Of a stretch of 64,000 bases of DNA, positions 14,401 through 64,000 are shown one piece after another. Every line of letters begins with the position of its first letter. The stretch's first letter is position 1. This stretch comes from Bradyrhizobium oligotrophicum S58 (GTDB lineage Bacteria; Pseudomonadota; Alphaproteobacteria; Rhizobiales; Xanthobacteraceae). Made by a program: the position numbers and the translations under genes. Location: contig NC_020453.1 in the NCBI RefSeq assembly GCF_000344805.1, positions 3,443,001-3,507,000 of the forward strand, in the 5' to 3' direction. Under the pieces are notes generated by a model. That model searched no databases, was not told the origin of the DNA, and saw nothing but the letters and a program-made list of their open reading frames with translations.

Positions 14401-14547
14401 GTGTATCAGTTCGACGATGTCGCCGCGAGGGAGCGCGCGGTCGGCGGCGACGAGACGAAGCGGCTGATCGCGGATTTCAACCGCGATTGGCCTGACATGA
14501 CGCGGACGCGCGAGAGCTTCGTGCTGGTGCAGACGGTCGATGGCTGA
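14401..14547 (+). pseudogene. Short reading frame, possible gene remnant
   Basis: A 48-codon frame from GTG 14401 to TGA 14547, closed upstream by a TAG four bases before. The peptide (DETKRLIADFNRDWPDMTRT, then ESFVLVQTVDG) has the composition and helix-strand pattern of a genuine C-terminal domain, which suggests the tail of a gene whose front part is gone. It follows the hydrolase gene by 21 bases. A real small gene or chance is also possible. Confidence 0.25.
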
Positions 14548-14606
14548 GCTCGCCGTGCACCGACAACGACAAAAGCGACACTGCGCCATCACGGTGCCGC
14601 GCCCGG

Positions 14607-14622
14607 TTCAGCTCACGTTCAG
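14607..14622 (+). promoter_or_regulatory. TTCAG direct repeat, 11-bp period
   Basis: TTCAG occurs at 14607-14611 and 14618-14622, exactly one helical turn apart, about 56 bases before the start of the His-rich protein gene. OmpR/PhoB-family response regulators bind direct repeats with this period. A stronger version of the same pattern lies at 55408-55427, upstream of the giant cytochrome gene. Confidence 0.35.
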
Positions 14623-44468: not shown

Positions 44469-44472
44469 TTTT

Positions 44473-46509: not shown

Positions 46510-47021
46510 TATGAAAGGCTCCGTCGATCGAGGATGGCCTCGATGGCTTTGAGTTCGTCGTCATTGAGCGGAGCAACGTGTTCCGCCTCGGGCGCTGCTG
46601 CATTGGCCGCCGCCCGGCGCACATAGCGGCCGAAGGCGAGGATGGCGGTGAGCAGCGCGAGCAGTGGCCCGATCCACAGCGGGATCGTATTCCACTGCAA
46701 CGGCGGCTTGAGCAGAACGAAATTGCCGTAGCGTGCGACCAGGAAGTCCACCGCCTGCCGGTCGCTGTCGCCAGCCTGCAGGCGGTCACGCAGCAGCACC
46801 CTCAGATCATGCGCCAATGGAGCGTTGGAGTCGTCGATGCTTTGATTTTGGCAGACGACGCAGCGGAGCTCCCGGCCCAGCGCGCGAGCGCGAGCCTCAA
46901 GTCCCTCATCCCGCAACATTTCGTCCGGAAGCACCGCACGGGACGGTGACAAACTCGCTGTCAGCGCCAGCGAGGCGACGAGCAGCGCTCCGGCCAGGCG
47001 CTTGATCCGCCGGTCGTTCAT
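46509..47021 (-). CDS. ccmH: Cytochrome c maturation protein CcmH
   Basis: A 170-residue periplasmic thiol-disulfide protein with a signal peptide, the diagnostic LRCVVCQNQS (Cys54, Cys57) that reduces apocytochrome CxxCH cysteines, and one C-terminal membrane helix (IPLWIGPLLALLTAILAFG). It works with CcmF in haem ligation. It overlaps ccmG by four bases (ATGA) and ccmI by one, indicating tight co-translation. Confidence 0.95.
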   Translation of the reverse strand: MNDRRIKRLAGALLVASLALTASLSPSRAVLPDEMLRDEGLEARARALGRELRCVVCQNQSIDDSNAPLAHDLRVLLRDRLQAGDSDRQAVDFLVARYGNFVLLKPPLQWNTIPLWIGPLLALLTAILAFGRYVRRAAANAAAPEAEHVAPLNDDELKAIEAILDRRSLS

Positions 47022-47554
47022 GACTCGCTCCTGAGTGCCTTCAGGAGCGGCTCGAAATCATCACGCCACACTTCCTCGGTCAGCGGGCCCGGATAGCGGA
47101 AGCGGATCCGCCCGGCCCGGTCGATCACGAAGGTCTCGGGAACACCGGTCACGCCGAGATCGATGCCGGTCCGGCCGGACTCGTCTGAGCCGACACGGGC
47201 ATAGGGACTGCCATGCTTGGCAAGCCAGCGCTTGCCGTCGTTCCGTTCGTCCTTCCAGTTCAGCCCGTAGATCGGAATCGCGGAGCTCTCCGCGAGCTTG
47301 AGCAGCATCGGATGCTCGACGCGGCATCCGGGACACCAGGATGCGAACACGTTGAGCAGCAGGACGTCGCCCTGCAGGTCGGTATTGGCGAGACCGGCAC
47401 CCTTGCCGTCGAGCGATGCGAGCTGGAAGCGCGGCGTCGGCTTGTCGATCAGGGTCGACGGCATTCGCCGTGGGTCGTTGGTCAGACTGAAGGCCAATCC
47501 AGCGGCCAGTGCGGCGAAGGCAACGACGGGTATGAGATAAGGAAGGCGCGGCAT
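47018..47554 (-). CDS. ccmG: CcmG/DsbE thioredoxin-like protein
   Basis: A 178-residue membrane-anchored thioredoxin-fold protein: N-terminal helix (LIPVVAFAALAAGLAFSL), active site ASWCPGC (Cys74, Cys77) and the CcmG-specific LNWKDERNDGKRWL and GVTGVPETFVIDRAG. It keeps CcmH and apocytochrome thiols reduced. The WCPGC site differs slightly from the more usual WCPTC or WCPVC. Starts eight bases after the ccmF stop. Confidence 0.95.
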   Translation of the reverse strand: MPRLPYLIPVVAFAALAAGLAFSLTNDPRRMPSTLIDKPTPRFQLASLDGKGAGLANTDLQGDVLLLNVFASWCPGCRVEHPMLLKLAESSAIPIYGLNWKDERNDGKRWLAKHGSPYARVGSDESGRTGIDLGVTGVPETFVIDRAGRIRFRYPGPLTEEVWRDDFEPLLKALRSES

Positions 47555-47562
47555 GTCTCGTC

Positions 47563-49551
47563 CTATTCAGCTGGAACGGCAATCGGCACAGCCTGCATTG
47601 CCCGTCGCGGTGCACCGATGCGAAATCTCCGATCGGCGAGCGAGATGAAGCCACCGCAAGCCATCATCAGCGCGCCGATCCAGACCAGCGGCACCAGGGG
47701 ATGATAGTAGCAGCGCACCGCCCAGCCGCCCTTGTCGTCGGGATCGCCGAGCGTCACGTAGACGTTCCAGATCAGGTTGGTGCGAATACCCGCCGCGGTG
47801 GTCAGCTGCTGTCTGACGGGATAGAAGCGGCGCTCGCTGGAGAGTTGCGTAAACGGCTTGCCGTTCCGCGTGATGTCGAACGTACCTCGTTCGGCTTCGT
47901 AGTTGGGGCCCGGAAACTTTCCGATCGCGCGCAGCTTTATGTCGTAGCCCGCAAGCTGCAGGCTCTGCCCCGGCCGCAGCATCTCGACCTTTTCGCTGGC
48001 CCACGCAGTCATTCCGGTTATGCCGGCCACGGTGACACCCATACCCGCATGAGCCAGCACCAAGCCGTAGACCGCGAACGGAGTGGTGCGCGCGAGGTTG
48101 AGCGAGGTTGCCAGCGGCGTTGTGGTGCCGAGGCGCACGCGATGAGCAAGTATCATCAGCGAGCCGACGACGAGCCAGACGGCGATGCCGAAGAAGAACG
48201 CGACCAGGACATGGTGCCCGAACGTCGCGATCAGGATGGCGACGACGGCGAATACCGCCAGCCCGCCGGCGAGCCGAACTCGTTGCAGCGCCGCTGCGAG
48301 CAGATCGCGCTTCCATTTCAGGACCGGGCCAATCACCATGGCGAGCAGCAGCGGAACCATGATGGGAATGAACGTCATGTTGTAGTAGGGCGGCCCGACG
48401 GAGATTTTGTCGTTCCCCATCATGTCGACGAGCAGCGGATAGAACGTGCCGAGAAAGACCGTGGCCACCGCTGTCGTCAGCAGCACGTTGTTGAGCACGA
48501 GGCCGCTCTCGCGGCTGACGACTCCGAACAACGCACCGTGCTTCAGGCCTGGGGCCCGGACCGCATACAGCGTCAGCGCCCCGCCGGTTGCCACCAGGAT
48601 CAGCGCCAGGATGAATGCGCCGCGCGATGGATCCTGTGCGAAGGCGTGAACGCTGGTGAGCACCCCGGACCTCACCAGGAAGGTCCCGATCAGGCTCAAC
48701 GAGAACGTCACGATCCCGAGCAGAATCGTCCAGCTTTGGAGGGCGCTGCGACGCTCGACCACCAGGGCGGAATGCAGCAGCGCAGTCCCCGCGAGCCACG
48801 GCATGAAGGACGCGTTCTCGACGGGGTCCCAGAACCACCAGCCACCCCAACCGAGCGTGTAGTAGGCCCACGCGCTGCCGAGCGTGATTCCAATGGTGAG
48901 AAAGCACCATGCCGCCAGCACCCACGGTCGAACCCACCGGGCCCAGGCTGCATCGACCTTTCCCTCGATCAGCGCGGCAACCGAGAACGAGAACGCCATC
49001 GAGAAGCCGACGTAGCCCAGGTACAGAAACGGCGGATGAAAGGCGAGGCCGGGATCCTGCAGAATGGGATTGAGCCCATTGCCTTCAAGAGGCGCTTCGG
49101 TCAGTCGCGCGAACGGATTCGACGTCGAGACGATGAAGGCCAGAAAGCCGAGGCCGATCATGCCGTGCACGCCGAGCACGTTGCTCTGCAGCCGGTCGGG
49201 AAGGTTCGTTCCGAACAGCGCGACGGCCGCGCCGAACACCGAGAGAATCAGGACCCACAACAGCATGGATCCCTCATGGTTCCCCCAGACGCCGGAGACC
49301 TTGTAGAGCAGCGGCTTCAGCGTGTGCGAATTCGCTGCGACGACCTGGACTGAGAAGTCGGAGTGGACGAAGAGCGACGTCAAGCAGGCGAATGCGGTTG
49401 CGACGAAGAGAAACTGAGCCAGGGCAGCGTGACGAACGAAGCCGGCGATCACCGCGGATTGACGACGCAGCGCAGCGAATGGAACGATCGACTGCATCAG
49501 GGATACGAGAAGCGCGAGAATTAGTGCAAAGGATCCGGCCTCCGCTGTCAT
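47563..49551 (-). CDS. ccmF: Haem lyase subunit CcmF
   Basis: A 662-residue multi-pass membrane protein, the core of the cytochrome c synthetase. It has the WWD haem-handling motif WGGWWFWDPVENASFMPW at about residues 232-249, and about 14 membrane helices. Conserved segments include GSHEGSM-like GNHEGSMLLW and RSGVLTSVHAFAQDP. It is first of the ccmFGHI set with GGAGA before ATG 49551. No ccmE or ccmABCD is present here, so it must use haem handed over by CcmE from elsewhere. Proximity to two multihaem cytochromes suggests a dedicated lyase, as NrfE is for NrfA. Confidence 0.95.
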   Translation of the reverse strand: MTAEAGSFALILALLVSLMQSIVPFAALRRQSAVIAGFVRHAALAQFLFVATAFACLTSLFVHSDFSVQVVAANSHTLKPLLYKVSGVWGNHEGSMLLWVLILSVFGAAVALFGTNLPDRLQSNVLGVHGMIGLGFLAFIVSTSNPFARLTEAPLEGNGLNPILQDPGLAFHPPFLYLGYVGFSMAFSFSVAALIEGKVDAAWARWVRPWVLAAWCFLTIGITLGSAWAYYTLGWGGWWFWDPVENASFMPWLAGTALLHSALVVERRSALQSWTILLGIVTFSLSLIGTFLVRSGVLTSVHAFAQDPSRGAFILALILVATGGALTLYAVRAPGLKHGALFGVVSRESGLVLNNVLLTTAVATVFLGTFYPLLVDMMGNDKISVGPPYYNMTFIPIMVPLLLAMVIGPVLKWKRDLLAAALQRVRLAGGLAVFAVVAILIATFGHHVLVAFFFGIAVWLVVGSLMILAHRVRLGTTTPLATSLNLARTTPFAVYGLVLAHAGMGVTVAGITGMTAWASEKVEMLRPGQSLQLAGYDIKLRAIGKFPGPNYEAERGTFDITRNGKPFTQLSSERRFYPVRQQLTTAAGIRTNLIWNVYVTLGDPDDKGGWAVRCYYHPLVPLVWIGALMMACGGFISLADRRFRIGAPRRAMQAVPIAVPAE

Positions 49552-49853: not shown

Positions 49854-51359
49854 CTATTCCAGAAGCTTGGCGAGGTCGTTGTGACCGCTGGCGATGGCGA
49901 TGTCCGTGGCACGTTCATGCCGCTTGTTCTTCAATTGCTTCTCGGCGCCGGCGGCAAGCAGGTTCTGCGCGATGTCGATGTGCCCTTCATGGGCCGCCAT
50001 CATCAACGCGCTCATGCCCTGACCGTTGCGCAGGTTCGGATCAGCCTTGCGCCGGAGTAGCTCAGCGACGACATCGGCAAGCCCGGCGCGTGCGGCAAGG
50101 ATCAGGGCGGTATTTCCGCTTCCGGTCGCGCGTTTCGGATCGGCGCCGTGGTCCAGCAGAAGCAGCGCGGCCGCGGCGCTGCGGCCTTCGATGGCATTCA
50201 GCAATGGCGTCCTTCCGTCGAGGTCGGCGCGGTTGACGTCGGCGCCTGCGCGGATCAGTTGCTCGAGCGCGCGCGTATTGCCAGTGCTGGCCGCGTGCCA
50301 GAGGGCGGTGTGGCCTTGCCCATCGGCGGCGTTGAGATCCGACCTTTGAACGAGTTGCCGATCGAGCCCGCCATCGGTGCATGATGCGACTGCGATCATG
50401 AGCGGGGTCCGGCCGTCGGCCGGCGTTGGAAGGTTGCCCGAGGCGCCATCGAGCAGCGCGGCAATGGCGGCGCCATTGCAGCGGCCGAGGGCGATCAGCA
50501 GCGCGGTCGAGCCATCCGCTCGCGCCGCGGATGGGTCGGCGGACTTCGTCAGCAGCAATTTGACGACGTCCCCGTGGTCCTTGTCCGCTGCCAGCATCAA
50601 CGGCGTGTCGCCGCGCCGGTTGCCGATGTTCGGGTTGGCTCCCGAGGCAAGCAGCAGCTCCACCAGCCGAAGATGCCCGGCGGCGGCGGCGATCGCCAGC
50701 GGCGTATCGCCGTCCTCGTTGACTGCGTTGACGTCGGCCTTTGCTGTGATCAACTGCCGCATCGGATCGAGCTGACCGCGCAGGGCCGCATCGATGATGG
50801 CCGGATGGCCATTTCGTATCGCGGCCTGCGCATCGAGCGTCGGGACAGGCTTGCGCATAGTCTCGCGCTCCACCTCTCGGGCGCGCGGGTGCGAGGCTCG
50901 GTTGGCGATGTCGGCCAGCAACTGCTCGGCGGGCTGATAGCCGGCCGCGGCCGATTTGCGCAGCCAATCCCGTGCCCGCTCGGGATCGGCCGACGTTCCT
51001 CGTCCTGCGAGCCACATCGCAGCGACATTGTATTGCGCTTTGGCGTGCCCCTTCTTCGCACTTGCCTCCATCCATTTGAACGCCAGCGTGTCGTCGGATC
51101 GGGTGCCGAGACCTGAGCGATAGAGCGATGCAAGCCGGTACTGCGCCTCTGGATCGCCGGCGATTGCGGCGCGCTCGAGCAGCTTCAGTGCCTCCTCGGG
51201 ACGTCCGGCCCGGATTGCCGCATCCGCAGCCTGGCGCGCGCCGGATATTTCGGAGCTCGCGCCCGCCGGCGCATCGCCGGCCGGGGCGACCGACGGTAGG
51301 GCCGAGCCGAGGAGACAGATCAGCGGGATGATGACGTGAGAGGACTTATGCCGTGCCAT
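49854..51359 (-). CDS. Exported Sel1-repeat and ankyrin-repeat protein
   Basis: A 501-residue protein with a signal peptide (IPLICLLGSALPSVAPA). Two Sel1-type repeats follow (AQYRLASLYRSGLGTRSDDT, then YNVAAMWLAGRGT), and after about residue 170 some nine ankyrin repeats with the GDTPLAIAAAAGH and GRTPLLNAIEGRS pattern. Ankyrin arrays bind proteins, so a periplasmic scaffold or chaperone for the cytochromes is plausible. Its start overlaps the flavoprotein gene by 14 bases, so the two are co-translated. Confidence 0.9.
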   Translation of the reverse strand: MARHKSSHVIIPLICLLGSALPSVAPAGDAPAGASSEISGARQAADAAIRAGRPEEALKLLERAAIAGDPEAQYRLASLYRSGLGTRSDDTLAFKWMEASAKKGHAKAQYNVAAMWLAGRGTSADPERARDWLRKSAAAGYQPAEQLLADIANRASHPRAREVERETMRKPVPTLDAQAAIRNGHPAIIDAALRGQLDPMRQLITAKADVNAVNEDGDTPLAIAAAAGHLRLVELLLASGANPNIGNRRGDTPLMLAADKDHGDVVKLLLTKSADPSAARADGSTALLIALGRCNGAAIAALLDGASGNLPTPADGRTPLMIAVASCTDGGLDRQLVQRSDLNAADGQGHTALWHAASTGNTRALEQLIRAGADVNRADLDGRTPLLNAIEGRSAAAALLLLDHGADPKRATGSGNTALILAARAGLADVVAELLRRKADPNLRNGQGMSALMMAAHEGHIDIAQNLLAAGAEKQLKNKRHERATDIAIASGHNDLAKLLE

Positions 51360-52647
51360 ACTTCGTCTCGACCTCGATACCCATGCTCTTCAGGAATCCG
51401 GTGGGCAGAATGCCGCCGACGCAGACAATGACGGCATCGTTTCGGATGGTGCTCGTGTCACCATCAGCATCGATGTCGACGTCGTCCTGGCCGATTCGTT
51501 TCACCGACGAATTGTAGATGACGCGGAGCCGTCCCGATCGAGTGGTGTCCTCCACCCGTTGGCGGTTCTTCAGTTTGGCGCGACTGAACGACTCGCTGCG
51601 ATGAGACAGGGTCACCGTCGTTCCGGGTTCGTCCGCGATGGAGCACGCGGCTTCCAATGCGGCGTCGCCGCCGCCGACCACGAGCACATGCTGGCCGCGA
51701 TATTGTTCGGGGTCGATCAGTCGATAGACGACCTTGGTCTGCTCTTCGCCCGGAACCTCCAGCTTGCGCGGCGTTCCGCGCCGCCCGATCGCCAAGAGGA
51801 CTGAATGCGTTCTGTGGCTGCCGCGGTTCGTCCTGACATCAAATCGATCTCCGACACGCGTGACCGCTTCGACGCGCTCGCCGACGTTCACCCTGAGACG
51901 GGCTTTGCGCACGATGCTCATGAAGAAGGCGATCAGCTGTTCCTTGCTGAGCTCCCTGAAGTTGAACTTTCCCGCGAGCGGAAGCGTGAAGGGAGCGGTC
52001 ATCACCAGTTTGCCGCGCGGGAAGTGCGCGACCGTGCCGCCGAGCGAGTCCTGTTCGAGGGTGACGAAACGCAGCCGATGCTGAAGACACGCGAGACTCG
52101 CCGAGAGACCGGCCGGACCGCAGCCGACGATCACGACGTCGAGCATGTCCGACTTGCCGACATTCTTGATCCTGCGGACGGAGTCGATCGCCTGGCGCCC
52201 TTGCTCGATAGCGTTGCGGACGAGGCCCATTCCTCCGAGCTCTCCCGCGATGAAGATGCCGGGCACGTTGGTCTGGAACGCCTCGTCCACGTTCGGAATG
52301 TCGATGCCGCGCGTCTCGGTGCCGAAAACCAGCGTGATGGCGTTCACAGGGCAGACCGCTTTGCAGGCGCCGTGCCCGATGCAGTGCGAGGGCTCGACGA
52401 GCGAAGCCTTGCCGCCGATCAGGCCGAGAATGTCGCCCTCCGGGCAAGCCCTGACACATGAGCCGCAGCCGATGCACAGGGCATGATCGATGATGGGATG
52501 GAGCGATGCCGGTTCGAGAAGACCGGCGTCCTTGGCGGCCGAGAGCTTCGCGACGCTCTTTATCTCTTTGCGTTTGCGTACGGCCATGTAGGTCGCCCAG
52601 ACGCCGAGCATTGGGGCGGCGTAGACCATCAGGAGATTGAGCGCCAT
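51346..52647 (-). CDS. Membrane-anchored ferredoxin-flavoprotein oxidoreductase
   Basis: A 433-residue redox protein. An N-terminal membrane helix (residues 1-22) is followed by a ferredoxin-like domain: CIGCGSCVRACP (Cys58, 61, 64, 68) and CIGHGACKAVCP, in which the second ligand position (92) is His, not Cys. Next is VPGIFIAGELGGMGLVRNAI, normally the C-terminal end of a thioredoxin-reductase-like domain, and only then the FAD motif GCGPAG (175-180) and the NAD(P) motif VVGGGDAALE. The TrxR-like domain thus appears circularly permuted. It probably passes NAD(P)H or ferredoxin electrons to the membrane. Divergent from the cytochrome b gene. Confidence 0.9.
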   Translation of the reverse strand: MALNLLMVYAAPMLGVWATYMAVRKRKEIKSVAKLSAAKDAGLLEPASLHPIIDHALCIGCGSCVRACPEGDILGLIGGKASLVEPSHCIGHGACKAVCPVNAITLVFGTETRGIDIPNVDEAFQTNVPGIFIAGELGGMGLVRNAIEQGRQAIDSVRRIKNVGKSDMLDVVIVGCGPAGLSASLACLQHRLRFVTLEQDSLGGTVAHFPRGKLVMTAPFTLPLAGKFNFRELSKEQLIAFFMSIVRKARLRVNVGERVEAVTRVGDRFDVRTNRGSHRTHSVLLAIGRRGTPRKLEVPGEEQTKVVYRLIDPEQYRGQHVLVVGGGDAALEAACSIADEPGTTVTLSHRSESFSRAKLKNRQRVEDTTRSGRLRVIYNSSVKRIGQDDVDIDADGDTSTIRNDAVIVCVGGILPTGFLKSMGIEVETKYGTA

Positions 52648-53002: not shown

Positions 53003-53881
53003 ATGAGCAGGGCAGCGGTCGCGCGCGCGAGTGGCAATCCTCTTCGAGGAACCCTTCCGGTCGTCATCACGGTCGTCGTCATCGGAGCGATCGGCACCGG
53101 GTGGCTGCAGAAGGAGGAAGAATATATTACGCCAGGATCGGGAACCGGGTACTGGCTCGGAATATACGGCAGCGTCGCGATGTTATCGTTGCTGGCCTAT
53201 TCGATGCGCAAGCGCTTCAAGTCGCTGCGCGGGATGGGCTCGGTGCCGTTCTGGTTCAGGACGCACATGCTGCTGGGTGTCGTCGGTCCGGTGCTCATCC
53301 TGTTCCATGCAAATTTCAAGCTGGGAGCGCTCAACAGCAACGTCGCGTTCTTCGCCATGCTGATCGTTGCGATCAGCGGCGTGATCGGCCGGTACATCTA
53401 CGGCAAGATCCACATGGGTCTCCATGGCGGAAGGGCGCGCGTCAAAGAGCTGCTCGTGGAGGCCGAGACGATGCGGACGGAGCTCGGTCAGGAGATGCAG
53501 GCCGCGTCGTTCGTGTCGCGCGAGTTGGCCACCTTCAGCAAGGGTCTCGACAAAAGGGTGCCGCGAACCGCGTTGGGCAGCCTGCGGACCGGGGCGATCA
53601 TCGCCGCGCGCACGCGGCGGCTGCGTGTCAACGTGACTGCGGAAGCGCGCCGGCTCATTCGCGCCGAGGCGAAGCGGGCGCGATGGTCATGGTCCGAGCG
53701 GCGTCGCCGCGAGAAGCGGGTCGAAGAAGTCGTACGGCGGTATGCCGCTGCAGTGCGGAAGGCCGCCGAGCTGACATTCTTCGAGCGGCTGTTCTCGCTG
53801 TGGCACGTTCTCCATCTGCCGCTGTTTTTTCTCATGTTGCTGGCGGGTCTCGTTCATGTCTGGGCCGTCCACCATTATTGA
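53003..53881 (+). CDS. Di-haem b membrane protein
   Basis: A 292-residue protein with five membrane helices (about residues 18-35, 50-68, 84-105, 112-131 and 264-289). His88 and His102 in helix 3 and His271 and His285 in helix 5 are each 14 residues apart, the spacing of bis-His-ligated b-haem pairs, as in ferric-reductase-like and quinol-oxidising cytochromes b. Between helices 4 and 5 is a ~120-residue basic, coiled-coil-like insertion. First gene of the rightward cytochrome operon, 12 bases before the 18-haem gene. Probably links a quinol or flavoprotein donor to the periplasmic cytochromes. Confidence 0.85.
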   Translation: MSRAAVARASGNPLRGTLPVVITVVVIGAIGTGWLQKEEEYITPGSGTGYWLGIYGSVAMLSLLAYSMRKRFKSLRGMGSVPFWFRTHMLLGVVGPVLILFHANFKLGALNSNVAFFAMLIVAISGVIGRYIYGKIHMGLHGGRARVKELLVEAETMRTELGQEMQAASFVSRELATFSKGLDKRVPRTALGSLRTGAIIAARTRRLRVNVTAEARRLIRAEAKRARWSWSERRRREKRVEEVVRRYAAAVRKAAELTFFERLFSLWHVLHLPLFFLMLLAGLVHVWAVHHY

Positions 53882-53893
53882 CGGAGCTTCGTG

Positions 53894-55252
53894 ATGAGGT
53901 GGCGCCTTGCGGCAGTTATTGCCGTCATCATCGGTGTTGTGGCGCTGCCGGCCGGGCTTCGCGCGCAGACGTTGCTGGAAAAGCTGGTGATGCCGGGGCC
54001 GCTGGTCGAGAACCATGCCAAGCTCGAGAGCGAATGCGGAAAGTGCCATGAAGCCTTCACGCGGAAGGCGCAGTCGGGTCTCTGCCTCGATTGCCACAAG
54101 GAGATCGCAGTCGATCGCAGGCAGCATGAACGGCTGCATGGACGTGAGCAGGCGGCGCTGACCCAGGAGTGCAGGCAGTGTCACACCGATCACAAGGGAC
54201 GTGGAACCGACATCGTTCAACTCGACAAGGAAACCTTCAATCACGACATGACGAACTACAGGCTGGTCGATTCGCACAAGAGTGTCCCTTGTGCTGGATG
54301 CCATGTCGCGAAGGTGAAGTTCCGCAACGCGCCATCGACCTGCTTCGAGTGTCACAAGGCGCTCGATCCGCATCGCGGCCGGCTCGGCGAGCGCTGCGAC
54401 AACTGCCACACGGCGGTGAAATGGCGCGCGACCAAGGAATTCGACCATACGAAGACCCGGTTTCCCCTCGTTGGCGCGCACAAGTCGGTCGCTTGTGCAA
54501 CGTGCCATTCCGGCCAGCAATACAAGGATCTGCAGACCTCGTGCGGTTCATGCCACCGTCTTCAGGACGTCCATGCCGGCCGCTTCGGCGACAAATGCGA
54601 GACGTGTCACGATCAGGAGAAGTGGAAGACGGTCCGCTTCAACCATGACAAGACCCGTTTCCCGTTGCGAAATGGGCATGCCAAGGTGAAGTGCGAGAGC
54701 TGCCATACCGGCGACCTCTACCGGGACAAGCTCGCGACGTCATGCGTCGCCTGTCACCGCAAGCAGGATCCTCATCAGGGCAAGCTCGGCGAACGCTGCG
54801 AGACGTGCCATAGCGATGCGGGCTGGCGGAAGAAGCTCTCCTTCGATCATGAGATTACGCGCTTTCCGTTGATAGGTCTGCACAGGTCGGTGCCCTGTGA
54901 GGAGTGCCACCGCACGCCGACCTACAAGAACACGCCGATGGCCTGTGAGAGCTGCCACAAGGATTTCCACCAGGGACGGCTCGGGGGACGGTGCGCGACT
55001 TGTCACAATCCGAACGGCTGGCGGCTGTGGCGCTTCGATCACGGGCGGCAGACACGGTTCCCGCTGGTTGGGGTCCACCAGACAATCACATGCGAAGCCT
55101 GTCATAAGGCCAAGTCGCCGACGGATCTGAAATTGCCGATGGATTGCTTCAGCTGCCATCGCAGCTCGGACGTGCACAACGGCACGTTTGGCCAGACGTG
55201 CGAGCGCTGCCATGTCGCAACGGGATGGCGCAACGTTCAGATCAGGAACTGA
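53894..55252 (+). CDS. Exported 18-haem cytochrome c
   Basis: A 452-residue protein with a signal peptide (RLAAVIAVIIGVVALPAGLRA) and 18 CxxCH motifs, first at residue 48, last at 436. Three N-terminal haems are followed by five tri-haem modules of about 65-68 residues, each with three CxxCH and three further His (for example DPHRGRLGERCDNCH, FDHTKTRFPLVGAH), consistent with bis-His coordination. The FDH...FPLVGxH link also opens the giant cytochrome, so the two are related. ATG 53894 has GGAG 8 bases upstream. A likely periplasmic relay between the b-haem protein and the giant cytochrome. Confidence 0.95.
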   Translation: MRWRLAAVIAVIIGVVALPAGLRAQTLLEKLVMPGPLVENHAKLESECGKCHEAFTRKAQSGLCLDCHKEIAVDRRQHERLHGREQAALTQECRQCHTDHKGRGTDIVQLDKETFNHDMTNYRLVDSHKSVPCAGCHVAKVKFRNAPSTCFECHKALDPHRGRLGERCDNCHTAVKWRATKEFDHTKTRFPLVGAHKSVACATCHSGQQYKDLQTSCGSCHRLQDVHAGRFGDKCETCHDQEKWKTVRFNHDKTRFPLRNGHAKVKCESCHTGDLYRDKLATSCVACHRKQDPHQGKLGERCETCHSDAGWRKKLSFDHEITRFPLIGLHRSVPCEECHRTPTYKNTPMACESCHKDFHQGRLGGRCATCHNPNGWRLWRFDHGRQTRFPLVGVHQTITCEACHKAKSPTDLKLPMDCFSCHRSSDVHNGTFGQTCERCHVATGWRNVQIRN

Positions 55253-55736: not shown

Positions 55737-58700
55737 TTGGGCAGCTGCTACAGCAAGCGGGGGCTGTTGGCGCGAGCATCGCACCGTCTGGTGCGGTGGC
55801 TGCTCGCTGGTGTGCTGCTCGCCTTCGCGTTTGCAGGGCAGGCTGCTGCGCAGAGCTCGTTCGACCATCTCTCGACCGGGTTTCCGCTGACTGGAAGTCA
55901 TGTCGGCGTGGAGTGCTCGTCCTGCCACGTCGGCGGGCGGTTCAAGGGCACGCAGACGCAGTGCGCCAGTTGCCACAACGGCGCACAGACGGCGGGCATG
56001 TCGGTCAACCACCCGATGACCACGCGGCGATGTGAGAGCTGCCATCAGACCTCGACATGGAAGGACGTTCGCGCGATCGACCATACCCAGGCAAAGGCTT
56101 CGTGTACGACCTGCCACAACGGCGTCATGGCCCTGGGGAAGCCGAAGAACCACATCACGACGGCGGCGCAGTGCGATGTCTGTCACAGGTCGACCGCCAG
56201 CTTTCGCGTCAGGATGAAGATGGATCACGCCGGCATCGTCGCCGGGTGTGCGAATTGCCACGACGGCGCGACGGCGCGCGGCAAGTCGGGCAACCATCTT
56301 CAGACCAATCTGCCGTGCGAGTCCTGTCACACCAGCACCGCCAGCTTCGCTGGCGCGGGCTTCAAGCATGCGGCCACCGATACCAGCTGCGCGACCTGTC
56401 ACAACGGCAAGACGGCGCTCGGGATGACCACGCCGCCGCACATTCCGACCGGCACCCTGCAGTGCTCGAACTGCCATACCAACACCGCGGCAAGCTTCAC
56501 GTCCTACACGATGAACCACACGGCTGTGGCGACGGCGCGGTGCGACAGCTGCCACAACGGCTCGTTCACCGGCCAGGGCAGCAAGGGCGCGCTGGGCACG
56601 GCGTCGTACCCGAACCACGTCGCGACCGGCGGCGCCGACTGCGTCAGCTGTCATGCCAAGGCGGCGAGCGGCTTCACCAGCTGGGGCGGCGCGGCCTTCA
56701 AGCATGCGGCGACCGACACCAATTGTTCCTCGTGCCACAACGGCAAGACGGCGCTCGGCATGACCACGCCGCCGCACATCCCCGTGACAGGGATCCAGTG
56801 CTCGAATTGCCATAGCAACACGGCGGCGGCGTTCGACGTCTACACGATGAGCCATGCGGCAGTGAGCGCGAGCCGCTGCGACAGCTGCCACAACGGCGGC
56901 TACACCGACCAGGGCAACACCGGCGCACTCGGCACCAAGTCTTACCCGAACCACGTCGCCACCAACGGCCAGGACTGCATCACCTGCCACGCGACCGCGG
57001 CCAGCGGCGGCTTCAAGAGCTGGGGCGGCGCCGGCTACAAGCACGCCGCGACCGACACCAATTGCGCGACCTGCCACAACGGCAAGACCGCGCTGGGCAT
57101 GACCACGCCGCCGCATATCCCGACCGGGACGCTGCAATGCTCGAACTGCCATACCAACACCGCGGCGAGCTTCACCACCTACACCATGAACCATGCCGCG
57201 GTAGCGACGGCACGCTGCGACAGTTGCCACAACGGCTCGTTCACCGGCCAAGGCACCAAGGGCGCGCTGGGCACGGCGTCGTATCCGAACCACGTCGCCA
57301 CCGGCGGCGCCGACTGCGTCAGCTGCCATGCCAAGGCCGCGAGCGGCTTCACCAGCTGGGGCGGGGCTGCCTTCAAGCATGCCGCCACCGACACCAATTG
57401 CGCGACCTGCCACAACGGCAAGACGGCGCAGGGCATGACCACGCCGCCGCATATCCCGACCGGGACGCTGCAATGCTCGAACTGCCATAGCAACACCGCG
57501 GCGAGTTTCACCACCTACACCATGAACCATGCCGCGGTATCGACGGCGCGCTGTGACAGCTGCCACAACGGCTCCTTCACCGGCCAGGGCACCAAGGGCG
57601 CGATGGGCACCGCGTCCTACCCGAACCACGTTGCGACCGGCGGGGCGGACTGCGTCAGCTGCCACGCCAAGGCCGCGAGCGGCTTCACCAGCTGGGGCGG
57701 GGCTGCGTTCAAGCATGCCGCCACCGACACCAATTGCGCGACCTGCCACAACGGCAAGACGGCGCTGGGCATGACCACGCCGCCGCACATTCCGACCGGG
57801 GCGCTGCAATGCTCGAACTGCCATACCAACACCGCGGCAAGCTTCACGTCCTACACGATGAACCACGCTGCGGTAGCGACGGCGCGCTGTGACAGCTGCC
57901 ACAATGGCTCGTTCACCGGCCAGGGCACCAAGGGCGCGATGGGCACCGCGTCCTACCCGAACCACGTCGCCACCGGCGGGGCGGACTGCGTCAGCTGCCA
58001 CGCCAAGGCGGCCTCGGGCGGCTTCACCAGCTGGGGCGGGGCTGCCTTCAAGCATGCCGCCACCGACACCAATTGCGCGACCTGCCACAACGGCAAGACG
58101 GCGCAGGGCATGACCACGCCGCCGCACATTCCGACCGGGGCGCTGCAATGCTCGAACTGCCATACCAACACCGCGGCAAGCTTCACGTCCTACACGATGA
58201 ACCACGCTGCGGTAGCGACGGCGCGCTGTGACAGCTGCCACAACGGCTCCTTCACCGGCCAGGGCACCAAGGGCGCGTTGGGCACCGCGTCCTACCCGAA
58301 CCACGTCGCCACCGGTGGAGCCGACTGCGTCAGCTGCCACGCCAAGGCCGCGAGCGGCTTCACCAGCTGGGGCGGTGCGGCGTTCAAACATGCCGCAACC
58401 GACACCAACTGCGCGACCTGTCACAACGGCAAGTCGGCGCTGGGCATGACCACGCCGCCGCACATCCCGACCGGGACGCTGCAGTGCTCGAACTGCCATA
58501 CCAACACCGCGGCGAGCTTCACCACCTACACCATGAACCACGCCGCGGTATCGACGGCGCGCTGCGACAGTTGCCACAACGGCTCGTTCACCGGCCAGGG
58601 CACCAAGGGTGCGCTGGGCACCGCGTCCTACCCGAACCACGTCGCCACCGGTGGAGCCGACTGCGTCAGCTGCCACGCCAAGGCCGCGAGCGGCGGCTTC

Positions 58701-61700
58701 ATCAGCTGGGGCGGGGCTGCGTTCAAGCATGCCGCCACCGACACCAACTGCGCGACCTGTCACAACGGCAGGACCGCGCTGGGCATGACGACGCCGCCGC
58801 ACATCCCGACCGGGACGCTGCAATGCTCGAACTGCCATACCAACACGGCAGCGAGCTTCACCACCTACACGATGAACCACGCGGCGGTAGCGACGGCGCG
58901 CTGTGACAGCTGCCACAATGGCTCGTTCACCGGCCAAGGCACTAAGGGTGCGATGGGTACGGCGTCGTACCCGAACCATGTTGCGACCGGCGGGGCGGAC
59001 TGCGTCAGCTGCCACGCCAAGGCGGCCTCAGGCGGCTTCACCAGCTGGGGCGGGGCTGCCTTCAAGCATGCCGCCACCGACACCAATTGCGCGACCTGCC
59101 ACAACGGCAAGACGGCGCAGGGCATGACCACGCCGCCGCATATCCCGACCGGGACGCTGCAGTGCTCGAACTGCCATACCAATACGGCGGCGAGCTTCAC
59201 GACCTACACGATGAACCACGCGGCGGTAGCGACGGCGCGCTGTGACAGCTGCCACAATGGCTCGTTCACCGGCCAAGGCAGCAAGGGCGCGTTGGGTACG
59301 GCGTCGTACCCGAACCATGTTGCGACCGGCGGGGCGGACTGCGTCAGCTGCCACGCCAAGGCGGCCTCAGGCGGCTTCACCAGCTGGGGCGGGGCTGCCT
59401 TCAAGCATGCCGCCACCGACACCAATTGCGCGACCTGCCACAACGGCAAGACGGCGCAGGGCATGACCACGCCGCCGCATATCCCGACCGGCACGCTGCA
59501 GTGCTCGAACTGCCATGCCAACACCGCAGCGAGCTTCACCACCTACACCATGAACCACGCCGCGGTATCGACGGCACGCTGCGATAGCTGCCACAACGGC
59601 TCGTTCACCGGCCAAGGCACCAAGGGTGCGATGGGCACCGCGTCCTACCCGAATCACGTCGCCACCGGCGGAGCGGACTGCGTCAGCTGCCACGCCAAGG
59701 CCGCGAGCGGTGGTTTTACCAGCTGGGGCGGCGCTGCCTTCAAGCATGCCGCCACCGACACCAACTGCGCGACCTGCCATAACGGCAAGTCGGCGCAGGG
59801 CATGACCACGCCGCCGCACATCCCGACCGGCACGCTGCAGTGCTCGAACTGCCACAGCAACACCGCGGCGAGTTTCACCACCTACACCATGAACCATGCC
59901 GCGGTATCGACGGCGCGCTGTGACAGCTGCCACAACGGCTCCTTCACCGGCCAGGGCACCAAGGGCGCGATGGGCACCGCGTCCTACCCGAACCACGTTG
60001 CGACCGGCGGAGCGGACTGCGTCAGCTGCCACGCCAAGGCCGCGAGCGGCTTCACCAGCTGGGGCGGGGCTGCGTTCAAGCATGCCGCCACCGACACCAA
60101 TTGCGCGACCTGCCACAACGGCAAGACGGCGCTGGGCATGACCACGCCGCCGCACATCCCGACTGGCGCGCTGCAATGCTCGAACTGCCACAGCAACACC
60201 GCGGCGAGTTTCACCACCTACACCATGAACCATGCCGCGGTATCGACGGCGCGCTGTGACAGCTGCCACAACGGCTCCTTCACCGGCCAGGGCACCAAGG
60301 GCGCGATGGGCACCGCGTCCTACCCGAACCACGTTGCGACCGGCGGAGCGGACTGCGTCAGCTGCCACGCCAAGGCCGCGAGCGGCTTCACCAGCTGGGG
60401 CGGGGCTGCGTTCAAGCATGCCGCCACCGACACCAATTGCGCGACCTGCCACAACGGCAAGACGGCGCTGGGCATGACCACGCCGCCGCACATTCCGACC
60501 GGGGCGCTGCAATGCTCGAACTGCCATACCAACACCGCGGCAAGCTTCACGTCCTACACGATGAACCACGCTGCGGTAGCGACGGCGCGCTGTGACAGCT
60601 GCCACAATGGCTCGTTCACCGGCCAGGGCACCAAGGGCGCGATGGGCACCGCGTCCTACCCGAACCACGTCGCCACCGGTGGAGCCGACTGCGTCAGCTG
60701 CCACGCCAAGGCCGCGAGCGGCTTCACCAGCTGGGGCGGTGCGGCGTTCAAACATGCCGCAACCGACACCAACTGCGCGACCTGTCACAACGGCAAGTCG
60801 GCGCAGGGCATGACCACGCCGCCGCATATCCCGACCGGCACGCTGCAGTGCTCGAACTGCCATACCAATACGGCGGCGAGCTTCACCACCTACACCATGA
60901 ACCACGCTGCGGTAGCGACGGCGCGCTGTGACAGCTGCCACAACGGCTCGTTCACCGGCCAGGGCACCAAGGGTGCGCTGGGTACGGCGTCGTACCCGAA
61001 CCATGTTGCGACCGGCGGGGCGGACTGTGTCAGTTGCCACGCCAAGGCCGCGAGCGGCGGCTTCACCAGCTGGGGCGGCGCGGCGTTCAAGCATGCCGCA
61101 ACGGACACCAACTGCGCGACCTGCCATAACGGCAAGACGGCGCTGGGCATGACCACGCCGCCGCACATCCCGACCGGCACGCTGCAGTGCTCGAACTGCC
61201 ATACCAATACGGCGGCGAGCTTCACCACCTACACCATGAACCACGCGGCGGTAGCGACGGCGCGCTGTGACAGCTGCCACAACGGCTCCTTCACCGGCCA
61301 GGGCACCAAGGGCGCGATGGGTACGGCGTCATTCCCGAATCACGTCGCCACCGGCGGGGCCGATTGCGTCAGCTGTCATAGCAAGGCCGCCAGTGGTGGC
61401 TATGTCAGCTGGGGCGGCGCCGCGTTCACCCACTCCGCGGCCAATACCAATTGCTCCACCTGCCACAACGGCTCGAGCGCCAAGGGCTTGACGACGCCGC
61501 CGCACATTCCGGTGACGGGCGTCCAGTGCTCGAATTGCCACAGCAACACGGCGGCGAGCTTTGCGACCTACACGATGAGCCATGCCGCCGTGCACGCCAC
61601 GCGCTGCGACAGCTGTCACAACGGCTCGTATCGCGGCCAGGGCCGTAAGGGTGCGCAGGGGCCGGATCATAGCGCCAAGGCGCAGGATTGCGGCTGCTGC

Positions 61701-63467
61701 CACGTGCGCGCCGCCGCCAACTTCTCGACCTGGGACGACGACCCGCAGAAGCCGGCAGCCGGTTGCGCCACCACGGCCAGGTCGGTGGTTCCCGCTCAGG
61801 CTCCGGTCGTCAAGGCTGTGACGCCGGCCTCGACCGCCAACCGGACCATGACCGCGGCAACGGCAGCTGGTGCTGCAGCGGGTACGAGCGCTGCGCCGGC
61901 CACATCTCAGGCGCCAGCTGCGGCGGGTGCTGCGGCCAAGCCTGCGGCGACGAGCAGTTCGACTTTGTTGTTCAGCAGTAAGCCGCTGGCAAATACAGCT
62001 GGGACGTCGATGACCACCACAGCGGGGTCCGAAGCAGGGACGGCCACCGTTGCGCCGGGGTCCGCCAAACCCGACAGCTCAGCGACAGCTGCTGGCGCGG
62101 CGGCATCCGTGCAGCTGTCGCCGGGCACGTCGCCTCGAATGAGCTTGACGGCACCGCTTGCGCCGAACGATCCGCGCAGCAAGCTCTTGCCTCCGATCGA
62201 TACGACCAGCACTGACACAGCTGAGGCTCAGAACGCAGGCCGGCTTCCGTCGCTGTTGCCGACTATCAATCCAAGGGCAGGGCTTGCAGGGTCGAGCGCC
62301 GGGGAAGCCGGCTCCAGATTCAGCCACTCGATGGCGCAGGGGCCGTGTGCATCGTGCCACAACGGAACGAGCGCGCCTGGCAAGCCGCCGAAGCACATTG
62401 CGACGGCTGCGCCGTGCGAGACCTGCCATAAGAGCACGACGACGTTCAGCGGAGCCCGCTTCAGCCACACCGGAGCGGCGGCAGCCTGCGCGAGCTGTCA
62501 CAACGGCATGACTGCGACCGGCAAGCCGCAGAAGCACGTTGCGACGAACGCGCCGTGCGAGACCTGCCACAAGAGCACGACGACGTTCAGCGGAGCGCGC
62601 TTCAGTCACACCGCGACGACGGCGGCTTGTGCGAGCTGCCATAACGGCATGGCCGCGAGCGGCAAGCCGCAGAAGCACGTCGCGACCAATGCGCCGTGCG
62701 AGACCTGCCACAAGAGCACGACGACGTTCAGCGGAGCGCGCTTCAGTCACACCGCGACGACGGCGGCCTGTGCGAGCTGCCATAACGGCATGGCAGCGAG
62801 CGGCAAGCCGCAGAAGCACGTCGCGACCAACGCGCCATGCGAGACCTGCCACAAGAGCACGACGACGTTCAGCGGCGCCCGCTTCAGCCACTCCGGCACG
62901 ATGGCGGCCTGCTCCAGCTGCCACAACGGATCATCGGCCGGCGGCAAGCCGCCGCGTCACGTGGTCACCAGCGCGCCATGCGAAAGCTGCCACAAGAACA
63001 CCGTGTCGTTCTCGGGCGCGCGGATGGATCACACCAGCCTGACCGCGCCATGCGTCAGCTGTCACAATGGCTCGAATGCGACCGGCAAGTCGCCGAAGCA
63101 CTTCGTGACCAACGTCCCCTGCGAGAGCTGCCACCGGACGGTCAGCTGGAGCTCGATCAACTACCGGCATATGTCGACGAGCTATCCGAATCACAGTGCC
63201 GCCATCGGCTGCACGGCCTGTCACAGCGGCAACTCGCAAGCCGTCTTGTTCAAGTTCGCGGCCTACAAGCCCGACTGCGCCGCCTGTCACGCCAGTGATT
63301 TCCGGCCGCAGCAGCACGCCAAGCTCGTGAAGCCGGCGCCGATGGACTACACCGTCGCCGAGCTCAAGGACTGCACCGGCGCGTGCCATATCTATGCTGA
63401 CAAGTCGCAGACCACCATCGTCACCCGCCGCCAGCGGCAGCATCGGGTCAATGGAGGTGGCTGGTGA
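55737..63467 (+). CDS. Giant repeat-built multihaem cytochrome c (85 CxxCH + 1 CX3CH)
   Basis: A 2,576-residue exported protein. TTG 55737 has GGAG six bases upstream, and the product opens with a signal peptide (core WLLAGVLLAFAFAGQAAA). Counted by eye: 7 CxxCH in an N-terminal cap (residues about 59-205), 60 in fifteen tetra-haem repeats (218-1905), 4 in a diverged sixteenth unit, then an Ala/Thr/Ser/Pro-rich linker (about 2005-2200), then 14 CxxCH in a C-terminal cap from 2204 and a final CX3CH at 2546. Each tetra-haem unit has four further His (PPH, MNH, PNH, FKH), one per haem. I know no characterised protein of this form; a haem wire for long-range or extracellular electron transfer is the likely role. 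Confidence 0.93.
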   Translation: MGSCYSKRGLLARASHRLVRWLLAGVLLAFAFAGQAAAQSSFDHLSTGFPLTGSHVGVECSSCHVGGRFKGTQTQCASCHNGAQTAGMSVNHPMTTRRCESCHQTSTWKDVRAIDHTQAKASCTTCHNGVMALGKPKNHITTAAQCDVCHRSTASFRVRMKMDHAGIVAGCANCHDGATARGKSGNHLQTNLPCESCHTSTASFAGAGFKHAATDTSCATCHNGKTALGMTTPPHIPTGTLQCSNCHTNTAASFTSYTMNHTAVATARCDSCHNGSFTGQGSKGALGTASYPNHVATGGADCVSCHAKAASGFTSWGGAAFKHAATDTNCSSCHNGKTALGMTTPPHIPVTGIQCSNCHSNTAAAFDVYTMSHAAVSASRCDSCHNGGYTDQGNTGALGTKSYPNHVATNGQDCITCHATAASGGFKSWGGAGYKHAATDTNCATCHNGKTALGMTTPPHIPTGTLQCSNCHTNTAASFTTYTMNHAAVATARCDSCHNGSFTGQGTKGALGTASYPNHVATGGADCVSCHAKAASGFTSWGGAAFKHAATDTNCATCHNGKTAQGMTTPPHIPTGTLQCSNCHSNTAASFTTYTMNHAAVSTARCDSCHNGSFTGQGTKGAMGTASYPNHVATGGADCVSCHAKAASGFTSWGGAAFKHAATDTNCATCHNGKTALGMTTPPHIPTGALQCSNCHTNTAASFTSYTMNHAAVATARCDSCHNGSFTGQGTKGAMGTASYPNHVATGGADCVSCHAKAASGGFTSWGGAAFKHAATDTNCATCHNGKTAQGMTTPPHIPTGALQCSNCHTNTAASFTSYTMNHAAVATARCDSCHNGSFTGQGTKGALGTASYPNHVATGGADCVSCHAKAASGFTSWGGAAFKHAATDTNCATCHNGKSALGMTTPPHIPTGTLQCSNCHTNTAASFTTYTMNHAAVSTARCDSCHNGSFTGQGTKGALGTASYPNHVATGGADCVSCHAKAASGGFISWGGAAFKHAATDTNCATCHNGRTALGMTTPPHIPTGTLQCSNCHTNTAASFTTYTMNHAAVATARCDSCHNGSFTGQGTKGAMGTASYPNHVATGGADCVSCHAKAASGGFTSWGGAAFKHAATDTNCATCHNGKTAQGMTTPPHIPTGTLQCSNCHTNTAASFTTYTMNHAAVATARCDSCHNGSFTGQGSKGALGTASYPNHVATGGADCVSCHAKAASGGFTSWGGAAFKHAATDTNCATCHNGKTAQGMTTPPHIPTGTLQCSNCHANTAASFTTYTMNHAAVSTARCDSCHNGSFTGQGTKGAMGTASYPNHVATGGADCVSCHAKAASGGFTSWGGAAFKHAATDTNCATCHNGKSAQGMTTPPHIPTGTLQCSNCHSNTAASFTTYTMNHAAVSTARCDSCHNGSFTGQGTKGAMGTASYPNHVATGGADCVSCHAKAASGFTSWGGAAFKHAATDTNCATCHNGKTALGMTTPPHIPTGALQCSNCHSNTAASFTTYTMNHAAVSTARCDSCHNGSFTGQGTKGAMGTASYPNHVATGGADCVSCHAKAASGFTSWGGAAFKHAATDTNCATCHNGKTALGMTTPPHIPTGALQCSNCHTNTAASFTSYTMNHAAVATARCDSCHNGSFTGQGTKGAMGTASYPNHVATGGADCVSCHAKAASGFTSWGGAAFKHAATDTNCATCHNGKSAQGMTTPPHIPTGTLQCSNCHTNTAASFTTYTMNHAAVATARCDSCHNGSFTGQGTKGALGTASYPNHVATGGADCVSCHAKAASGGFTSWGGAAFKHAATDTNCATCHNGKTALGMTTPPHIPTGTLQCSNCHTNTAASFTTYTMNHAAVATARCDSCHNGSFTGQGTKGAMGTASFPNHVATGGADCVSCHSKAASGGYVSWGGAAFTHSAANTNCSTCHNGSSAKGLTTPPHIPVTGVQCSNCHSNTAASFATYTMSHAAVHATRCDSCHNGSYRGQGRKGAQGPDHSAKAQDCGCCHVRAAANFSTWDDDPQKPAAGCATTARSVVPAQAPVVKAVTPASTANRTMTAATAAGAAAGTSAAPATSQAPAAAGAAAKPAATSSSTLLFSSKPLANTAGTSMTTTAGSEAGTATVAPGSAKPDSSATAAGAAASVQLSPGTSPRMSLTAPLAPNDPRSKLLPPIDTTSTDTAEAQNAGRLPSLLPTINPRAGLAGSSAGEAGSRFSHSMAQGPCASCHNGTSAPGKPPKHIATAAPCETCHKSTTTFSGARFSHTGAAAACASCHNGMTATGKPQKHVATNAPCETCHKSTTTFSGARFSHTATTAACASCHNGMAASGKPQKHVATNAPCETCHKSTTTFSGARFSHTATTAACASCHNGMAASGKPQKHVATNAPCETCHKSTTTFSGARFSHSGTMAACSSCHNGSSAGGKPPRHVVTSAPCESCHKNTVSFSGARMDHTSLTAPCVSCHNGSNATGKSPKHFVTNVPCESCHRTVSWSSINYRHMSTSYPNHSAAIGCTACHSGNSQAVLFKFAAYKPDCAACHASDFRPQQHAKLVKPAPMDYTVAELKDCTGACHIYADKSQTTIVTRRQRQHRVNGGGW
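56388..61451 (+). repeat. Fifteen head-to-tail coding repeats of 336/339 bp
   Basis: Fifteen units of 112 or 113 codons (seven of 112, eight of 113, total exactly 5,064 bp) run in frame from CATCH codons at 56388 to CSTCH codons at 61452. Units differ by few residues, for example Thr/Ser/Ala after CSNCH, Ala/Ser in VATAR/VSTAR, TKGAL/TKGAM, and one extra Gly (AASGF/AASGGF). Near identity at DNA level points to recent unequal crossing-over or gene conversion; copy number may vary between strains. Confidence 0.95.
62415..63119 (+). repeat. Five coding repeats of exactly 141 bp (di-haem module)
   Basis: CETCH/CESCH codons recur at 62415, 62556, 62697, 62838, 62979 and 63120, each 141 bp apart. 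Each 47-residue unit has two CxxCH and two further His (FSH, QKH). The N-terminal cap has the same module, with CxxCH codons at 56031, 56172 and 56316 (141 and 144 bp). Confidence 0.92.
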
Positions 63468-64000
63468 TGCGCGGCCGCTCCGGACAAGTCGCGGCTGCGA
63501 GGTCGGCGGGATGGCGGATCAGTCTGCTGTCCGTCTTTCTTGCACTCCTGCTCGATGGCGGCTTCGGCGTCGCACCGGCCCAGCCGGTCATCGATCAGTT
63601 CGTCGCCGGCGCGAACGCCACCACGGTCGGAAACTGCAGCCTCCTGCGCGTCAATTTTCACGTCCGTGTCCGCTACACCGGGCATTTTCCGCTTGATCAG
63701 GGCAGCCAGCTCAGCGTCTCGCTGCAACTGGTGGATCGGGACGCCATCATGGCGCGGCGCCTGGTCAGGCGCGAAGGCGTGCGTGTCGACAATGCCCAGG
63801 GCTCCGGCATCCAGGACGTCTATCTGACGCTCGATCAGAACAGGGGACCGATCCTCGTCGTCCAGCTTGCCGGCGAGTTCGCCTACCAGATCGTGCAGTC
63901 CGGCAGCTTCGAGCAGGTGGCGATCGTGATTGCCCGAAAGGGCCCGGTGTCGGCTTGCAAGGTGAAAGCCCTGGTGCCGAACGTGGCCGCTCCGGATGCG
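63467..64000 (+). CDS. Exported protein following the giant cytochrome (runs off window)
   Basis: ATG 63467 overlaps the giant cytochrome stop codon by one base (TGATG), so the two are co-translated. The visible 178 residues begin with a basic leader and hydrophobic segment (ISLLSVFLALLLDGGFGVAP), a signal peptide. A strand-rich domain follows: NCSLLRVNFHVRVRYTGHFP, then SQLSVSLQLVDRD and GPILVVQLAGEFAYQIVQSG. It has two Cys but no CxxCH. It may be an outer-membrane or surface partner of the cytochrome; the visible part does not match a family I can name. Confidence 0.85.
   Translation, partial: MRGRSGQVAAARSAGWRISLLSVFLALLLDGGFGVAPAQPVIDQFVAGANATTVGNCSLLRVNFHVRVRYTGHFPLDQGSQLSVSLQLVDRDAIMARRLVRREGVRVDNAQGSGIQDVYLTLDQNRGPILVVQLAGEFAYQIVQSGSFEQVAIVIARKGPVSACKVKALVPNVAAPDA

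Follow-up and report, generated by a model that had tools for sequence, protein, structure and literature searches.

What does a single, putatively exported chain with 85 CxxCH motifs do in Bradyrhizobium oligotrophicum S58, a bacterium of soil and plants, and how is such a chain built and varied? The gene in question lies in a window of 64,000 nucleotides, the whole stretch of DNA analysed, within a genome that is a single contig of 8,264,165 bp. Judged from sequence comparison, the protein is quite probably the extracellular, length-variable arm of a porin-cytochrome conduit of the PCC3 type. This reading is developed below from the chain itself, its gene neighbourhood and its relatives.

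The giant cytochrome and its published record

The giant cytochrome is encoded by one open frame with a TTG start and 2,576 codons (Table 1; genome positions 3498737-3506467). A motif count on the translation gives 85 CxxCH and one CX3CH, with the CxxCH motifs split exactly as 7 + 15 × 4 + 4 + 14. This agrees in full with the original prediction, which had described a single chain of 2,576 residues with 7 + 60 + 4 + 14 CxxCH motifs and one CX3CH; the repeat span of 5,064 bp given there is likewise borne out by seven units of 112 and eight of 113 residues, together 1,688 residues. In 200 shuffled sequences of the same composition, the mean number of CxxCH motifs was 0.92 and the maximum 4. The chain contains 90 histidines outside CxxCH, one of them within CX3CH, and its mature mass was computed as 255.2 kDa. 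The TTG start with GGAG six bases upstream is common to S58, G222, G085 and G159, while the orthologue in G166 has a different start.

A minus-strand open reading frame (55644-59015, 1,123 aa) was rejected as a gene by judgement, being the opposite strand of a GC-rich repeat. The family model of the DmsE/MtrA decahaem cytochromes (TIGR03508, 258 positions) gave 386 bits over cut-off, but through 18 matched stretches of the 85-site repeat, where a true ten-haem member would match once. Assignments to DmsE, MtrC and the type VI secretion protein Hcp (T6SS Hcp) were all rejected; the DmsE and MtrC hits come together with an over-cut-off T6SS Hcp match and most likely reflect CxxCH repetition. CxxCH-rich repeats can give high-scoring, unreliable family hits over cut-offs, as DmsE and T6SS Hcp illustrate, and automatic annotation can be misled by them.

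The giant cytochrome is already published and not new. It had been called unexpected in Bradyrhizobium, a wording that no longer holds, since the S58 protein has been in print with the same count since 2017 (PMC5566968). He et al. reported 85 haem-binding sites for this extracellular multihaem cytochrome (MHC), the largest number in one protein known to them, and named the cluster type PCC3 (PMC5566968). Edwards et al. described a cytochrome of Agromonas oligotrophica with 86 haems, encoded in an operon with a porin, as a 255 kDa peptide with a chain of approximately 630 Å (PMC7096707). In taxonomy, A. oligotrophica is B. oligotrophicum; it is the same protein, with a mass matching the one computed here. 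Roles as wire and as capacitor have also been proposed for such cytochromes in earlier print. Regarding size, an ANME-2c fosmid encodes 86 sites (PMC9012536), and the earlier record has since been passed by an Acidobacteriota metagenome-assembled genome (MAG; Paludibaculum) reported with 112 (PMC11495043). The S58 protein is not the largest, as relatives with 101 and 123 CxxCH were found here. The comparative pieces added by the present analysis, namely length variation, linker, array evolution and the Fe-S/FAD partner, are new and worth follow-up.

Gene neighbourhood of the PCC3 cluster

Table 1. Features of the giant cytochrome and its neighbourhood, in window positions.
Feature	Position	Strand	Remarks
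Two-component sensor kinase and response regulator	43089..45126	-	Adjacent to the cluster at 5 of the 6 orthologous loci
CcmI/CycH-like TPR protein	45193..46509	-	
CcmH	46509..47021	-	
Redoxin-family protein	47018..47554	-	CcmG by gene context
CcmF/NrfE-type haem lyase	47563..49551	-	CcmF/NrfE family model over cut-off
Sel1 and ankyrin-repeat protein	49854..51359	-	501 aa; exported-looking by eye
4Fe-4S and FAD pyridine-nucleotide oxidoreductase	51346..52647	-	433 aa
Inner-membrane protein (IMP), PCC3 type	53003..53881	+	292 aa; two WX3HX13H and SGVIG; motif definition from the literature
Second multihaem cytochrome, assigned to the periplasm by the PCC3 model	53891..55252	+	453 aa; 18 CxxCH, as in 7 of 7 complete same-genus loci
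Extracellular multihaem cytochrome of the PCC3 cluster	55737..63467	+	2,576 aa; 85 CxxCH and 1 CX3CH; assignment published for S58
Signal-peptide-like start, Sec-type	55737..55853	+	39 aa, to AAAQ/SS, before the first haem site; from sequence, by eye
N-terminal header, haem sites 1-7	55914..56387	+	First spacing 16, shared by 21 of 26 printed sequences from distant relatives
Array of 15 tetrahaem units of 112/113 aa	56388..61451	+	60 CxxCH, spacing 25-26-33-28/29; unit analysis and TRF
Degenerate last unit, haem sites 68-71	61452..61703	+	
Haem-free linker	61704..62345	+	214 aa; Ala/Thr/Ser/Pro-rich; between sites 71 and 72
C-terminal module	62346..63464	+	14 CxxCH (mostly 23/24-aa spacing) and CX3CH; spacing as in the usual extracellular cytochrome of PCC3
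CX3CH (CTGACH)	63372..63389	+	Residues 2546-2551; in 11 of 11 same-genus sequences found via the porin
Porin-like protein, start	63464..64000	+	1,087 aa; GTG or ATG at the cytochrome stop codon; ends past the window at genome position 3509727

The published definition of PCC3 describes an IMP of about 300 aa with two WX3HX13H motifs and SGXXG, an adjacent gene for a periplasmic MHC and an extracellular MHC with 22-39 residues per haem. It also includes a neighbouring gene for a large β-barrel porin, for which the 1,087-aa porin-like protein is the candidate in S58. The S58 IMP has the described size and motifs, its neighbour carries 18 CxxCH in 453 aa (with the periplasmic location being predicted), and the giant protein has 30.0 residues per haem, its extracellular location likewise predicted. 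The likeness to the cluster of He et al. (PMC5566968) thus extends from the same strain and its 85-site extracellular MHC to the IMP motifs, the second MHC and the porin-like gene found here; the S58 periplasmic partner differs in having 18 sites, below their median of 21. The IMP is a predicted dihaem cytochrome b in the literature (PMC5566968) and had no Pfam or NCBIfam match. Since the giant gene lies between the 18-site cytochrome and the porin-like gene in a PCC3-type cluster, the earlier suggestion of a surface conduit fits.

The start of the porin-like gene overlaps the stop codon of the giant cytochrome, and a gene for 5-aminolevulinate (ALA) synthase follows the porin gene. The porin-like protein gave weak Pfam TPR matches below cut-off, and 49 of 59 distant loci contain a sequence similar to it. 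The CcmF-G-H-I set (45193-49551), on the opposite flank of the cluster, is possibly a dedicated haem lyase for the cluster or its CX3CH site. CcmA-E are absent among the neighbours looked at around this set. The S58 genome has two copies of CcmF, one beside the cluster and one elsewhere, and four other copies of ALA synthase above the family cut-off. A parallel to NrfEFG, a dedicated haem lyase acting on an atypical haem site, would be hypothetical: the S58 locus has one of the two CcmF/NrfE copies and a CX3CH site, with a putative link between them.

This island is kept in all six complete orthologous loci, with protein identities of 43-100%. The exceptions are CcmG, which is unmatched in G159, and the two-component pair, which is missing in G166. 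In G166, CcmFGHI and ALA synthase are likewise linked to the cluster, but at the opposite flank of the porin. CcmFGHI and ALA synthase accompany the Bradyrhizobium loci; among 59 non-Bradyrhizobium loci, many of them on short stretches, Sel1/ankyrin was found in at least 22, CcmF in at least nine and ALA synthase in at least one, making ALA synthase a Bradyrhizobium feature as far as seen.

Array, linker and length variation

TRF analysis of the array returned 15.7 copies of 339 bp. Units 3-14 of S58 share 88-99% mutual identity; greater divergence is seen in unit 2 (73-77%) and in unit 15 (86-88%, leaving unit 2 aside), a pattern that unequal exchange would be expected to produce. In a tree of 96 units, the nearest neighbour comes from the same genome for 88. 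The units of S58, SSBR45G and A19 are partly mixed, with largest pure clades of 12/15, 3/12 and 5/19, respectively. The pooled pN/pS within the array is 0.15 in S58 and ranges from 0.14 to 0.34 across seven genomes. These sequence patterns indicate that units are duplicated and homogenised as the array evolves, with purifying selection acting on them.

The same data bear on whether the number of repeats could stem from misassembly or from an unstable, functionless expansion. In four of the eleven same-genus genomes the contig ends inside the giant cytochrome gene, and in the G166 array one unit pair of 45 is identical. In S58, however, none of the 105 unit pairs is identical in DNA, which argues against a simple assembly error, with the copy number not proved thereby. 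Synonymous change far exceeds replacement change in all seven genomes and long arrays also occur in several other assemblies, so that an artefact or functionless expansion is very improbable.

Exactly four histidines outside the motifs are found in 87 of the 96 units, five or six in the other nine, and never fewer. Across 34 partly overlapping rows of three units each, all 12 distal histidines are conserved without exception. This conservation fits bis-His haems throughout. CxxCH by itself is no proof of haem, and the repeat could in principle bind another metal; we consider this hardly credible in view of at least one further histidine per CxxCH in 96 of 96 units, the co-conserved cytochrome c maturation and ALA synthase genes, and the cytochrome neighbour.

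OmcS, OmcE and OmcZ are extracellular multihaem wires, polymers of small subunits. A profile of the array, compared with 177,635 PDB sequences, gave no match at E <= 0.001, and the array thus showed no homology to these filaments.

The giant protein had also been proposed to act as a single-chain nanowire. The single chain stands, but it is split by a conserved haem-free linker, which measures 171-250 residues from haem to haem in all nine same-genus sequences that span it. The S58 linker consists of 26% Ala, 14% Thr, 12% Ser and 11% Pro. Because of this linker, the notion of one unbroken wire needs to be corrected to that of a two-module tethered arm. Conduction across the 214-residue gap would require contact between the two modules, and the length estimate of Edwards et al. 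(PMC7096707), which treats the protein as one haem chain, differs from the two modules for which the linker argues. PgcA of Geobacter sulfurreducens, in which haem domains sit on flexible Pro/Thr linkers and act by tethered diffusion (PMC11520253), offers a working model for the S58 linker by analogy, although PgcA has three haems and (PT)x linkers.

The CX3CH site in all eleven same-genus sequences is independent evidence, as their retrieval went through the porin. Its presence in 66 of 66 loci of a distant scan is not, because one of the two search patterns contained CX3CH. In the C-terminal module of B. aeschynomenes 83002, one haem site reads CASCQ instead of CASCH and has thus lost its histidine.

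Outer cytochromes of distant loci mostly proceed in single-haem steps of 23 or 24 residues, with the CX3CH tail at the end; among 26 sequences printed, the steps are longer or irregular in L080, L124 and L127. A gap of more than 45 residues occurs in two of 59 non-Bradyrhizobium frames, many of which are cut, namely L127 (89 residues) and L080 (85 residues). Judged by haem spacing rather than by a reconstructed history, the Bradyrhizobium protein resembles a standard PCC3 cytochrome with about 21 haems (7 + 14), into which a tetrahaem array and a linker have been inserted. The gammaproteobacterial MAG sequence L127, with 74 sites, follows a similar plan with a different unit. L127 and L080 (at least 52 sites) have different long units, with the 85-89-residue gap placed before the C-terminal module, and are possibly an independent case of array plus linker.

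For same-genus comparisons, 265 genomes were searched with the porin, 128 of which gave some match; among the matches listed, the similarity mostly covers some 280 C-terminal residues, with identities of 33-47%. Porin orthologues are present in only 11 of the 265 genomes (ten full-length, S58 included, and a partial one in G166), from which it follows that the cluster is dispensable. Ten loci besides that of S58 were retrieved, and seven of the eleven, S58 among them, contain both cytochromes in full. The outer cytochrome has 43 CxxCH in AUGA SZCCT0283, 53 in a groundwater MAG, 61 in G166, 73 in SSBR45G, 85 in S58, 101 in B. ontarionense A19 (G085) and 123 in Bradyrhizobium sp. BR13661. In each of the seven, the protein is composed of a header (5-9), 4n + 4 sites and a C-terminal module (10-14), with n being 5, 8, 10, 12, 15, 19 and 25 in the same order. 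The inner cytochrome, in contrast, has exactly 18 CxxCH in all seven. Variable PCC3 counts are already in print, and the sharp contrast between outer and inner cytochrome within one genus is the addition made here. The BR13661 gene (3447-14612 in locus L039 of genome G217) encodes 123 CxxCH and one CX3CH in an open frame of 3,721 codons from stop to stop, a count that exceeds every one we found in the literature.

A distant scan, for which two short peptide patterns were taken from the C-terminus of the Bradyrhizobium protein, yielded 66 loci, a biased PCC3 sample consisting mostly of MAGs from Alpha-, Gamma- and Deltaproteobacteria, Myxococcales, Acidobacteria and Nitrospirae, with no Gallionellaceae record. 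The outer frame is open in 44 of them, three being Bradyrhizobium (L065, L068, L129), which leaves 41 others. An open frame is a mechanical call; L110, L112, L119 and L126 have no usual header, L119 lies beside a 33-site frame, and some header-less frames may be broken or misassembled genes. Thirty of the 41 loci were usable. Seven were dropped as having no second frame of at least eight sites (L079, L088, L097, L110, L112, L114, L127), as were L082 (outer 7, other 9), L126 (outer 26, other 8), L092 (inner frame cut by the end) and L119 (two inner candidates, 18 and 33); in L076, the 24-site frame was taken over an 8-site one. In the 30 loci, the outer count ranges from 9 to 65 (CV 0.45) and the inner count from 18 to 25, with a CV of 0.08 that is too favourable, since keeping only inner frames of at least 18 sites narrows the spread by construction. 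The inner count is 21 in 21 loci, 24 in five, 18 in three and 25 in one, and is uncorrelated with the outer count (Spearman 0.04).

Variable outer and constant inner cytochromes also bear on the idea that the array is chiefly an electron store, at the cell surface or outside the cell, that evens out supply, with reach being secondary. Such a capacitor would suit 86 sites on one chain and a freely varying unit number, and storage has been suggested in print for PCC3 and other very large cytochromes. Geometry, however, explains a constant periplasmic and a variable outer partner more simply, and storage alone would need no extended repeat. We regard storage as the main role as rather unlikely.

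A proposed length-variable arm in a porin-cytochrome conduit

The preferred reading of the giant protein as an extracellular arm allows a path to be drawn through the cluster. Electrons would be exchanged between a cytosolic reductant, the Fe-S/FAD oxidoreductase and the dihaem-b IMP, then between the IMP and the 18-site periplasmic cytochrome, whose fixed length would fit the fixed gap of the periplasm. From there, they would pass through the porin to or from the C-terminal 15-site module of the giant protein, whose docking at the porin is a guess from the conservation of this module. The tethered 71-site array could reach tens of nanometres out to a mineral, a humic substance, an electrode or another cell. 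Gain or loss of units would tune the reach of the arm with the membrane parts untouched, while dedicated CcmFGHI and ALA synthase would supply and attach haem. The path draws on gene order, motif counts, distal histidines, architecture, conserved neighbours and purifying selection; haem loading, localisation, docking and the direction of electron flow are steps that we infer.

MtrCAB and MtoAB combine a periplasmic cytochrome, a porin and an outer cytochrome, and the S58 cluster would work alike, although the parts of those systems are ten-haem cytochromes. By the ratio of Edwards et al., the 71 haems of the array would span about 520 Å and the 124 of BR13661 about 900 Å, if arranged as one chain. 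About 27 haems have been estimated to cross 200 Å (PMC7096707). By this estimate, 18 haems fall short of a 200 Å periplasm; the actual gap would have to be smaller, or partners would have to extend the chain.

The Fe-S/FAD oxidoreductase recurs well beyond Bradyrhizobium. Of the 31 distant loci with an IMP and no less than 2 kb of sequence past it, 28 encode the oxidoreductase, with matches at E < 1e-30 and 50-60% identity; L086 and L124 gave no match, and the match in L082 is weak. Its gene is placed across the cluster, on the opposite side, in L106, L108, L119 and L121. The closest other match within S58 has 32% identity. The PCC3 section of PMC5566968 names no Fe-S/FAD or ankyrin partner, ALA synthase or haem-free linker, and the terms "FAD", "ankyrin" and "aminolevulinate" are absent from its main text.

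The direction of electron flow is where the published model enters. He et al. modelled PCC3 as an inward conduit, in which electrons from Fe(II), minerals or other donors pass to the quinone pool through a cytochrome-b-like IMP (PMC5566968). In Sideroxydans sp. CL21, both PCC3 copies exceed the mean, and iron-oxidising cells show significant upregulation of the copy 2 IMP (PMC12442390), in favour of this model. In Sideroxydans lithotrophicus ES-1, on the other hand, both PCC3 clusters are downregulated on Fe(II) (PMC8788666), which does not support a role in Fe(II) oxidation in that strain. The oxidoreductase beside the IMP further hints at NAD(P)H or ferredoxin as exchange partners, and not at quinone alone, and direction is not readable from sequence. 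An inward conduit is a real possibility, towards which we nonetheless do not incline. According to PMC12442390, PCC3 is functionally unverified.

Beyond the arm itself, the conserved neighbours may indicate that PCC3 comprises not four parts but six or more. Its inner pair, the Fe-S/FAD oxidoreductase and the dihaem-b protein, would resemble a split NADPH oxidase and exchange electrons with NAD(P)H or ferredoxin. In Bradyrhizobium, the array and linker would have been inserted into a cytochrome of about 21 haems served by its own haem lyase and ALA synthase, so that the outer end would be a tethered, length-tunable arm with up to 123 CxxCH and one CX3CH in BR13661. We put forward this six-part reading, taken as a whole, only tentatively.

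The S58 protein is a published former record holder, which, together with relatives of 43-123 sites and a constant 18-site partner, constitutes a set of natural length variants. Such variants in soil bacteria let one ask whether haem number sets reach, rate or storage, while the recurrent flavin/Fe-S partner offers a route to the source of PCC3 electrons. The occurrence of the same protein at very different lengths in relatives suggests that how far it extends beyond the cell is readily altered.
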